In this document: piece after piece, positions 5,563 through 20,000 of the stretch
Layout: each line of letters starts with the position of its first letter
How positions within the stretch are numbered: position 1 is the first letter of the stretch
Assembly: GCA_018066075.1 (NCBI GenBank)
Contig: JAGHSB010000062.1
Coordinates: 1-32,890 of the forward strand
Source of the DNA: Candidatus Treponema scatequi
GTDB lineage: Bacteria > Spirochaetota > Spirochaetia > Treponematales > Treponemataceae
DNA length: 32,890 nt
Direction of reading: 5' to 3'
Program-made: the position numbers and the translations under genes
The notes under the pieces: generated by a model
Told to the model about the DNA's origin: nothing
The model's database searches: none
The model's input: the letters and a program-made list of their open reading frames with translations, nothing else

Positions 5563-5616
5563 TGTAAAAAAGAAAATTATCACAGTAATGTATCTTTACA
5601 AATTATGGAATATTTC

Positions 5617-5645
5617 TTGACTTACTCTGAAAGTGATGTTAACTT
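5617..5645 (+). promoter_or_regulatory. Promoter of the toxin-antitoxin operon, leaderless type
   Basis: TTGACT (5617-5622), 17-bp spacer, TAACTT (5640-5645). A start 7 nt past the -10 falls on the A of the ATG at 5652. No Shine-Dalgarno precedes that ATG. The -35 is good (5/6), the -10 is weak (3/6). Confidence 0.45.
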
Positions 5646-5651
5646 AAAATC

Positions 5652-6155
5652 ATGAAAGATATTTTGATTTCTCTTCGTACAGAAAACCGATATTCTCAAA
5701 ACGCTCTTGCAAAAGAGCTCGGCATTTCGCGCCAGGCTTATATTAAATATGAAACAGGTGAAGTTGAACCTTCTGTAGAAATAATCCGCAAATTAAGTAA
5801 GATTTTCAATGTTTCGTATGCGTATTTGATTGATAATGGAAAATGTAAAACCGGACATTCTGATAATTTGTATGAATTTTCAGAAGAAAAAAGTTCATCT
5901 GTCGCTGATGCCCGCCCTTTGTATAAGAGCCGGTCTCTTAATTATGAAAATGTTTTATACGGTATACAGTCTATGCTTAAGACTTTTTCACAGGAACAGC
6001 TCCAGTCTGTTTATTCGATTGTTCAATCTGTAAATAACCTTAATTCCAGTTCGCAAAAACCGATTTTAAAACGCACTCCTGGCGGTCTTTCAGGTGATTT
6101 GTGGATCTCAGAAGATTTTGATGCTCCGATTGATGAGTTCAAGGAGTATATGTAA
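5652..6155 (+). CDS. XRE-HTH antitoxin with VapB/Phd-like C-terminal tail
   Basis: 167 aa. Residues 4-62 form a Cro/CI-type helix-turn-helix (SQNALAKELGISRQAYIKYE core) for DNA binding. Residues 63-140 are a low-complexity linker. The last 25 residues contain GDLW-x-x-x-DFDAP-x-x-x-FKEYM, the toxin-binding tail typical of small VapB/Phd-type antitoxins (DUF2281-like). It therefore looks like a large antitoxin in which an XRE repressor domain replaces the usual small DNA-binding domain. It overlaps the toxin gene by one base (TAATG), and the toxin's AAGGAG ribosome site lies inside its last codons, so the two are translationally coupled. Autoregulation is expected. I inferred the role from the tail and neighbour. 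Confidence 0.85.
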   Translation: MKDILISLRTENRYSQNALAKELGISRQAYIKYETGEVEPSVEIIRKLSKIFNVSYAYLIDNGKCKTGHSDNLYEFSEEKSSSVADARPLYKSRSLNYENVLYGIQSMLKTFSQEQLQSVYSIVQSVNNLNSSSQKPILKRTPGGLSGDLWISEDFDAPIDEFKEYM

Positions 6156-6535
6156 TGTTAATTCTTGATACTCATGCACTTCTCTGGTATTTATCTGATT
6201 CAAAAGAAATGGGCGATGATTTAAAACAGCAGATTTCAGACAGTGATTTAGTTGCCGTAAGTATCGCTTCATTTTGGGAAATTGCGATTAAACAGAGTAT
6301 TGGAAAATTAAAGCTGGAAGAATCAGTTTCTGAAATAGAACATATTTGCTATCTAAAAGATATTATGGTTTTACCAATAAAACCATCAGAACTTGATGTC
6401 ATTAAAACTCTTCCAAATATACACGCAGATCCTTTTGACCGTCTGATTATTTCTCAGACAATTTCTGAATCAGCAATTCTTGTGACCAAAGATTCAAATA
6501 TTCATAAATATCCTGTCAGGTCTATCTGGAAATAA
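6155..6535 (+). CDS. vapC: PIN-domain toxin ribonuclease, VapC family
   Basis: 126 aa, a typical VapC length. The PIN-domain acidic residues are visible: D5 in LILDTHALLW, E42 in WEIA, D92/D95 in ADPFDRLI and D113 in TKDSNI. VapC toxins are Mg2+-dependent endoribonucleases that cut tRNA or rRNA and are held inactive by the partner antitoxin. The ATG overlaps the antitoxin stop by one base, with AAGGAG at 6141-6146 giving an 8-nt spacing. It belongs to the group of PIN toxins paired with DFDAP-tailed antitoxins. The RNA target cannot be predicted. Confidence 0.92.
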   Translation: MLILDTHALLWYLSDSKEMGDDLKQQISDSDLVAVSIASFWEIAIKQSIGKLKLEESVSEIEHICYLKDIMVLPIKPSELDVIKTLPNIHADPFDRLIISQTISESAILVTKDSNIHKYPVRSIWK

Positions 6536-17002: not shown

Positions 17003-20000
17003 TTATTTTACTACCATTACTTTTCGGGTTTCTTCGATGTCTGGACCTACTACGCGGATGAAATAGATGCCTCGCGCAACTGTGTCGCCGGCATTATTAG
17101 TTCCATTCCAGTAATAATAGTGCAGACCGCGTGTCTGACGACCGTTTTCGAGGTATTTTACGATGTTGCCGTCTGCAGTCATGATGATGACGCGAAGGTT
17201 TCCGTCTTTAGGCATGTCTACTTCGAGTGTACAGAAGTCCTTGTTTGCTGCATTGATTACATTTGAGTAAATTGTAGCTCCGCCTCTCTGACGTTTTGGT
17301 TCTGACATGATGAATGACCAGAGGTCGATTGATGTCGGATCGAGAGGGTCTTTGAGGCGCAGACAATAGAGTGGTGTAATTTCTCCGCTTCCTGCCTGGT
17401 ACTTGTGGTTAATTGTGTATGATGTACCGTTTCTTGTTGCTTCAAAGAAGAAGTTTACATTGCTTCCTGAAGGCCAGTTGAGGCAAGGAGTATTTTCGTG
17501 GAAGTTGTGGAACAAGTATGTAATTGTTGTACTTCCTGCAACCGGAGTAATGTCTATGTATTCACTGTCTGAAGTTGTAATGTTTGTAGAAAGGTTTCTA
17601 GTCTGTGCAAAGCCTGAAATCGGAGCAGTATAGTTTGTACCTCCCTGGCTGTATGAAGGGAACCAGAAACGAGTTTTTCTGCCTGAGTATTCGTTGAAGA
17701 GAGTTCCGTCTGAGTAAGGTGTCGGAGTGATGTCTGCAACGAGTTTATATGTGAATGGCGCATCATTGTTACCGCCGTCCTTAGGTGCAACATTTTTTGT
17801 AACAAGAGTAATGTCTTTGTCTGAGAATACTTTGTTGTTTCTTCCTTCGCCAGTGAAGTTTCTCATTACGATTGAGTCTTCTGGTGCAAGTCCGCCTGTG
17901 CTGTCGATGTAAGTGTCGTTACGGTTATCGTATGCATATTGAACTTCGACGCAGTTTGTTATTACATCTGAAATACAGTGTGTTTCGCCATCTCGTACTA
18001 CTTTTGCAACTTGATGAGTACTGTGAATTTTGTTTTCAAGAAGGAATGATCCACCGTATTGGATTAATATTCCGTGTGTAATCATTTCATATGTCAGCGG
18101 CTGGTTAAGTGTTAACTTGAGCCCGTATTGAGTATTTGGTATTTGTTCTACAGAATCGACTGTACGAACAGCGGTTGTGCTTCCGATGGCAGAAATAATT
18201 TTGATTGCAGTTTTTGTTCTGTTTGCCTGTCCGTCATCATTCCATATATTATTATCGAATGCAACTGGCTGGTCAAAGAAGAGATAAATTGCATTTGAAG
18301 TAAAGTCTGCAATTGCAAATGATATGTACATATCGTTTGTAGCACATCGTGTTGCAGTAGCAGTAAATCTAAATCCTTCTGCATCACTAGGTGTTGATGT
18401 CGGTGCAGCCTTGTAGTTACTGATTCTGTTTTTATGATGGTCAGTTAATGTGTAGAATGCTTCTGCAAATGCACGCTCGATGGTGAGGTCAGTTGTGTTT
18501 GACTGATGGTCGCCATGAGAGTCTGAATCTGCACCGGCATTGATACCAGTTGCAGAAAGGTTCCATGTGATGTCGGTAGCTTTGATGTAGAATACGGCAA
18601 GGTCTCCCTTTCCGTCTGTTGATTCTGTACATTCTGCATCGATGTATGCTTTGCCAGTTTCGAAAGTTTTATTTGAGCCGTTTACTTTGATTGTTCTGCC
18701 TGAAGGGAAGTTTGTCATTGCTCGAGTAATTTCATTATTGGAATTTTCGATTAATGTATGTTTGTTTATGTCGTCATTTCTTACGAATTCAATTCGGATT
18801 ACATTATCACGAACTGAATATGTTCCTGAGAAGTTTGGAATTTCTGGTCCTGTTGTACGACCTTCTGATGCCGAGTAGCTTGAGTTGTTTGTAAGAATTT
18901 TCGGGTGTTGGAATGACACACCTGTTAGTGTTCTTGTGTAGACACCTGTTATTACTGTCGGATTTAAGTTGTATCTGATTTCGTCATCTGGTTCAGTATT
19001 GTTGTTTCCAGAGTTTGTACAATTTTCTCCTGCAGAAAGCCAGGCAAAACCATTGGTAGTTGTACAGCTTACTTTGCAGTAACTGATACTTGCATTGTAT
19101 GCTTCTGCGAAAGAGTCACGGGCATTATCGTTTGCTTTTATTTTTAGATCCCATGCTGCAGTTGAAGTGAGATTGACACCATTGTCATAGAAGTTCTGTT
19201 TGGCAGTAATTGTTTTACCCGCAAAACCTGTCAGAGAAGAAATGTATGTATTGTCTCCTGTGTGTGTAATTGTGTGAGTTGCAGAGTCAGGGAATCTTTC
19301 AGGATATTTTGAAGCAGTTGGAGTTGCCGATCCTGGTGCAGTATAAACCAGAGATGGCGGACAGAGCTTGTTATCTGCAGTACGAAGAGAATTATGGTAA
19401 TCGAAAAGGTTTGAAATGTTAGATTGAGAATCTTTGTACATTGAGTTAACATTGCCTTTCAAAAGAATGATGTCTTTGCCGGCTGTCATGTTTGCGTTGA
19501 GTGTAACGTTGCCGTTGAAGAGTGCGATGTTACCTTTGACATCGAGTGTGCCTGCTTTGAAAGTTACATCTTGTGCAGTTGTTCCGTTTCGGGCTGAGAT
19601 GTAGAGGTCTTTAGGAGCTGCGTCTGTTCCGACGGTGATGTTTGCAGTACCAGAGTTGATGACTGAAGTATTGCTGATGAATGTGTTTCCTTTTAATGTG
19701 ATTGCACCTAATGCTTGTGTTGCGGTACCAATGCTTGATTCAATAAGAATGTCGCCTGTACCTGTTGAAATTTCAAAAGTGTGTGCGCCATTTGAACTGA
19801 ACGGTTGGTTAAGGATTACGTTTCCAGATCCTGTTCCAGTTTCGAATGTTGTGTTTCCGTTTAATGTTATTACACCTGCTGATGCAGCTGCGCTGTTGAA
19901 AAGGATGTCGCTGTTTGCTGTGCTAATCTTATTTTTAATTGTGCCGCTTCCGTTTCCTGTAAGAGTAAAGCCGTTTGTTGCTGTAATGTTGCCACCTGCA

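Follow-up and report, generated by a model that had tools for sequence, protein, structure and literature searches.

A putative VapBC-type operon of Candidatus Treponema scatequi with an antitoxin combining an XRE head and a DUF2281 domain

Described systems and the locus

Neutralisation of VapC by DUF2281 proteins has been shown in E. coli (PMC4963859, PMC12654330); the pairs described include Ssr8013/Slr8014 and Ssl2138/Sll1092 of Synechocystis, which are VapBC systems with a DUF2281 (COG5559) antitoxin (PMC4963859), and a marine VapC/DUF2281 pair (PMC12654330). These systems share the PIN toxin and the DUF2281 neutralising domain with the locus reported here, but their antitoxins are filed as plain DUF2281 proteins, whereas the present antitoxin adds an XRE head and a promoter/operator region. 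Xre-PIN has been listed as a class of gene pairs, under-represented, by Makarova et al. in 2009 (PMC2701414), and resembles our locus in that an XRE antitoxin gene adjoins a PIN gene; the common chassis, changing tails and common operator of the loci analyzed here are not described in the accessible part of that survey. In the Panacea (PanAT) systems, promiscuous antitoxins combine one conserved domain with many unrelated toxins (PMC8832971, PMC10440598), as do the chassis loci described below. However, the constant domain of Panacea is the neutraliser or a proposed sensor, whereas the chassis keeps its DNA-binding head constant and varies the neutraliser. Overall, XRE-PIN pairs and promiscuous antitoxins are already known; in the open-licence literature we found no description of a common XRE head that, together with its promoter, is combined with many tails in Treponema, an absence that is weak evidence.

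The window, i.e., the whole stretch of 32,890 nucleotides that was analyzed, comes from a draft assembly (2.3 Mb in 280 contigs). On its forward strand, to which coordinates below refer unless stated otherwise, an ORF for the putative chimeric XRE-DUF2281 antitoxin (positions 5652-6155; 167 aa) is followed by an ORF for a VapC-type PIN protein (6155-6535; 126 aa). The two overlap by one base, with the antitoxin stop codon TAA at 6153-6155 and the toxin ATG starting at 6155; these positions, the 167-aa length and the overlap, all reported in a sequence-only reading of this DNA, were reproduced. Pfam searches assigned HTH_3 to antitoxin residues 7-59 (E 2e-15; 56.9 bits as compared to a cut-off of 23), DUF2281 (PF10047) to antitoxin residues 132-166 (27.3 bits, barely over the cut-off of 26.5), and a PIN domain to toxin residues 3-119 (E 4e-14). 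At the start of the contig, the 27-base sequence TTACAGGTTTTGTAAATAAGCTTACAA occurs twice in opposite orientation (8-34 on the minus strand and 263-289 on the plus strand), which may be a true inverted repeat or an artefact of assembly.

The pair is 98% identical, with conserved gene order, in Ca. Treponema merdequi, the nearest named relative in the genome collection. A copy at a non-syntenic site in Ca. T. caballi shows 53% (antitoxin) and 57% (toxin) identity, and an XRE-DUF2281-VapC pair is also found in a different genus (locus L192). As the pair is kept in these three, it does not represent a chance ORF; the XRE-DUF2281 architecture is rare, with examples from three species of Treponema and from a single genome outside that genus. 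A plasmid search found no relative of the pair at 80% coverage, and the viral-contig match examined (L212) covered the HTH portion only, with no PIN gene behind it. Within the codons of the antitoxin tail, the sequence AAGGAG (6141-6146) lies 8 nt 5' of the toxin ATG and is likely the Shine-Dalgarno sequence of the toxin gene; its position suggests translational coupling from antitoxin to toxin.

We consider it very probable that this pair is a VapBC operon (type II toxin-antitoxin) whose antitoxin is chimeric, an XRE front-end cassette having been joined to a DUF2281-VapC back end. As expected for VapBC, the PIN protein has conserved acidic residues, and the antitoxin gene lies immediately 5' of, and overlaps, the toxin gene. 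The antitoxin is an XRE/HTH_3 regulator by its Pfam score; it is not a canonical VapB, because HTH_3 takes the place of an AbrB, RHH or Phd DNA-binding domain, and its match to the NCBIfam VapB model NF050009 (39.1 bits) falls below the cut-off of 60. By analogy, it probably works like a VapB. The SocA_Panacea domain of PanA is absent, and the match to the RmrA models of RosmerTA, which combine an HTH with an ImmA-type COG2856/M78 protease domain, was limited to their N-terminal part.

The DUF2281 domain and its PIN partner

The structure model of the toxin shows a confident PIN fold (pLDDT 95.6), and the closest solved folds are VapC toxins (e.g., the Shigella VapC entries 5ecd and 3tnd); a sequence search of solved structures gave no match to the toxin. 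Residues D5, E42, D92, D95 and D113 are invariant among nine relatives from several phyla. The Pfam match, the VapC-like fold and the invariant acidic residues all support the VapC-type partner proposed previously, and the protein is probably a VapC-type RNase toxin, with toxicity assumed by analogy to known VapC proteins.

The antitoxin had been read from its sequence as an HTH, a linker of roughly 75 residues and a short neutralising tail. Domain matches and comparisons support this combination of HTH and tail, and the predicted core of the tail is indeed present (DLWISEDFDAPIDEFKEYM; 6096-6152, residues 149-167), but the C-terminus holds a complete DUF2281 domain (5964-6152, residues 105-167), comprising a helical hairpin and a disordered tail. 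A profile of 28 stand-alone Treponema DUF2281 antitoxins matched residues 105-167 with 63 bits, covering profile positions 6-70 of 70; the C-terminus therefore represents the whole antitoxin domain and extends beyond the 19-residue tail. Membership in DUF2281 is thus indicated by Pfam and, across the whole domain, by the local profile. As the profile match starts at residue 105, the linker (5847-5963, residues 66-104), which is mostly predicted to be disordered, has about 40 residues rather than 75. The structure model of the antitoxin, which is of low confidence (pLDDT 63.9), shows an HTH bundle, a disordered segment (65-96), a helical hairpin (98-133) and a disordered tail with a terminal short helix; matches among solved structures were confined to the HTH end.

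In a survey of 146 genomes of the genus, we examined the gene 5' of the toxin in the 30 loci with the best toxin matches. Nearly all of these loci have a stand-alone DUF2281 gene without an HTH ahead of the toxin, encoding proteins of mostly 69-82 aa with a similar short overlap; apart from the window, only one locus, with a broken copy of the toxin, departs from this pattern. The prevalence of stand-alone DUF2281 genes among these closest loci thus indicates that the first 104 residues were added ahead of a complete antitoxin. Outside the genus, the WISEDFDAP tail occurs on Phd/YefM heads in four MAGs (L012-L015; Proteobacteria and Gemmatimonadaceae) and, in Siphonobacter, in a stand-alone DUF2281 protein. 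The Phd/YefM-VapC pairs have the same tail core and toxin family as the window, but a Phd/YefM head instead of an XRE head. The proposal of a modular swap of the DNA-binding part consequently does not apply within Treponema, where a head was added to an antitoxin without a recognised DNA-binding domain, but does apply across bacteria, where the presence of the same tail on a Phd/YefM head in other phyla amounts to an exchange.

Accounts of modularity in toxin-antitoxin systems usually concern the mixing of gene pairs. Here it is visible inside one protein and in both directions: a given head carries many different tails, and a given tail is found alone or attached to either an XRE or a Phd/YefM head. 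The locus also suggests a route by which DUF2281 antitoxins, lacking a recognised DNA-binding domain, can gain auto-regulation. Elsewhere in the survey, three VapC genes with equal match score and identity (G145:C1, positions 727587, 744938 and 801736) lie within a span of approx. 75 kb in a single genome, which suggests recent copying of a DUF2281-VapC pair.

The XRE head as a chassis for different tails

The XRE/Cro-CI head (HTH_3; 5652-5837, residues 1-62) contains the recognition helix SRQAYIKYETG. We use the term chassis for an XRE HTH followed by a linker that carries an LxVASPxxxY-like motif. Searches with the head across the genus and its family found 117 XRE proteins, six of which are Panacea antitoxins; the chassis was thereby recovered in more than 100 loci of Treponemataceae, with several toxin types. 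Across the phylum, sampled with 296 genomes, every matching genome but one belonged to this family, the exception matching the HTH end only. Clustering of chassis proteins by tail and by downstream protein gave coinciding classes, with at least eight tail classes: a TREELYER tail with PIN (27 pairs), an EEKYG tail with PIN_3 (24 pairs), an ELRGASLI tail with PIN (16 pairs), two MazF/PemK tails (13 pairs), DUF2281 with VapC (4 pairs), ParE (3 pairs) and smaller PIN classes. Toxin families were checked by Pfam on representatives; the ParE match was weak (19.6 bits as compared to a cut-off of 23). The recognition helix (SRQxYxKYExG) is nearly identical among the large classes, and one genome of another genus (G401) carries approx. 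eleven chassis loci, including the independent XRE-DUF2281-VapC locus L192. The architecture first described as a single case therefore stands, but its head is a general chassis, and the same kind of genetic switch seems to have been combined with many toxins.

The window genome also carries a chassis XRE antitoxin gene without a toxin gene behind it (L004; G000:C250, about 17515-18188, minus strand), which looks like a decayed pair because its T. merdequi-like copy (L168) differs at the C-terminus and is followed by the start of a PIN-like ORF. Solitary XRE proteins of 104 aa (L031, L034, L036, L038, L057, L060 and similar) combine a related head with a short helical hairpin behind it, lack a recognised toxin-antitoxin gene downstream, and are possible ancestors or regulators of the chassis. 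The six Panacea (SocA) antitoxins with a related, chassis-like XRE head in the sample (L032, L033, L041, L055, L072 and L186) are followed by a small conserved gene (MINYKTLPEFDKDFKSLLKRYRTL); its product, for which the L041 representative had no Pfam match, is possibly a toxin of an unrecognised family.

Where similar heads (at least 60% identity) are combined with different tails, the toxins were similar in 1% of 210 locus pairs, as compared to 99.5% of 200 locus pairs with heads less than 50% identical and a shared tail. At the level of sequence, these comparisons show that the toxin partner follows the tail rather than the head and that head and tail are independent of each other. The heads of the window and T. 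caballi are sister to that of L177 (support 100/94), a locus with a TREELYER tail and another PIN; between the window and L177, identity is 80% for the head, 11-18% for the tail (11% over the last 62 residues) and 27% for the toxin. L192, on the other hand, shares the tail and has a 57% identical toxin and a 50% identical head located elsewhere in the tree. As the tree (87 heads) is based on 66 columns, many of its forks are open, and the bootstrap had not settled. Well-supported branches nevertheless force two origins of XRE-DUF2281, with the caveat that L192 is a long branch of unsure placement. Such loci allow a natural test of whether the half that binds DNA and the half that neutralises evolve separately from each other.

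Some XRE antitoxins have no separate tail, and the head is the most conserved part of the antitoxin between the window and T. caballi, as would be expected if the head itself blocked the toxin, in the fashion of HigA or HipB, and the DUF2281 part were a mere remnant. We consider this very improbable, as toxin type tracks the tail rather than the head, the same toxin family is accompanied by stand-alone DUF2281 genes, and DUF2281 neutralises VapC in other systems (PMC4963859, PMC12654330). Under the chimeric VapBC reading, the PIN protein would act as an RNase toxin and the DUF2281 back end (residues 105-167) would bind it; by analogy, neutralisation may involve the WISEDFDAP-FKEYM tail covering the toxin in the manner of VapB tails.

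Promoter, putative operator and linker

The regulatory spacer (5563-5651), located between an upstream AMP-dependent synthetase/ligase-like gene and the antitoxin gene, contains a putative operator, TTACA-N5-TGGAA (5596-5610, no strand assigned), with one mismatch to the TTACA-N5-TGTAA palindrome that is intact in the T. merdequi orthologue. This is followed by a -35 hexamer, TTGACT (5617-5622), which contains the TTGAC box common to most XRE-headed loci, and by a -10-like hexamer, TAACTT (5640-5645), 17 bp from the -35 hexamer and 6 nt before the ATG. The antitoxin ATG has no Shine-Dalgarno sequence, and the promoter is apparently leaderless, as judged from the position of the -10 box. Loci of tail classes 0, 2, 3, 6 and 9 show the same upstream order, i.e., TTACA-N5-TGTAA, TTGAC and a -10 box that mostly lies 6-7 nt ahead of the ATG, also without a Shine-Dalgarno sequence (the class 6 set contains one unrelated region, L010 with two XRE ORFs, which did not affect the conclusions).

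In XRE-headed loci the palindrome is found at the same distance from the ATG (-55 to -59). With up to 2 mismatches, it was present at this fixed position in 38 of 65 promoters (58%), as compared to 1.1% in shuffles. In PIN_3 class 1 the palindrome has a 3-bp spacer (20 of 27 with up to 1 mismatch), and among short solo XRE proteins it was found in 2 of 18. None of 29 stand-alone DUF2281 loci had a palindrome with up to 1 mismatch in the 100 bp upstream; in the upstream sequences inspected, these loci have Shine-Dalgarno leaders instead of the palindrome/-10 layout. A whole-genome scan for operator plus -35 (up to 3 mismatches) found 163 sites as compared to 145 in a reversed control, and the pattern is therefore informative solely at fixed promoter positions. 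Overall, these comparisons show that the promoter travels with the head and that its layout is common to XRE-headed loci across tail classes and genera. As this layout is absent from stand-alone DUF2281 loci of the same toxin family, the idea that toxin control is tied to a different operator type is supported by comparison.

This layout could be expected to recur even if the antitoxin were a chance fusion of an ordinary regulator to an antitoxin, with operators and promoters alike through common descent of phage-repressor-like heads and forming no functional unit: homology of the heads could by itself make their promoters similar through descent, and XRE-PIN pairs were already known (Makarova et al. 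2009; PMC2701414). However, the layout is kept across tail classes and genera although linkers and tails diverge, heads and DUF2281 domains were joined at least twice separately, the palindrome is enriched at a specific position, and descent and function are mutually compatible; we thus regard a chance fusion as improbable.

Under the preferred reading of a cassette joined to a DUF2281-VapC pair, the XRE head would dimerise, bind a TTACA-N5-TGTAA-type operator just 5' of the -35 box and autoregulate the apparently leaderless promoter. With its centre approx. 49 bp 5' of the start, the palindrome could be suited to repression or equally to activation; the direction of regulation is a prediction, as is leaderless translation. 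In Treponemataceae, the front-end cassette (operator, promoter, head and linker) would have been combined on repeated occasions with various tail-plus-toxin back ends; here it would have been added to a pre-existing DUF2281-VapC pair.

When the linkers of 77 non-redundant chassis proteins were searched for ungapped motifs, LxVASPxxxY emerged with a score of 1237, as compared to 553-594 in shuffled sets; in class 1 linkers the search partly settled on another segment, YDAYFDGNxVR. When trained without one class, the motif predicted the left-out MazF, ParE and ELRGASLI classes well and classes 0 and 1 moderately, while prediction was poor for DUF2281 (P = 0.048 for the window, 0.44 for T. caballi and 0.29 for L192). 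The window copy, SSVADARPLY (5895-5924, residues 82-91), is degenerate. An ImmA-type protease acting on the shared linker is not favoured, because Peptidase_M78 was not found in the window genome.

The occurrence, in one cell, of toxins under similar heads and operators raises the question of whether they are cross-regulated. A broader hypothesis, which we consider unlikely, is that one cassette controls many unrelated toxins per cell, with antitoxins cross-regulating as a network and the linker motif serving as a docking or cleavage site for a common host factor; if so, this factor could free several toxins together.

The operator, the -10 box and the linker motif of the window are all degenerate copies, which counts against the cassette reading and, as the T. 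merdequi palindrome is intact, would fit a decayed or silenced pair with a toxin that no longer works. Such decay is extremely improbable, as both ORFs are intact, the catalytic residues are invariant, and the pair retains its 98% identity to that of T. merdequi with no stop codons.
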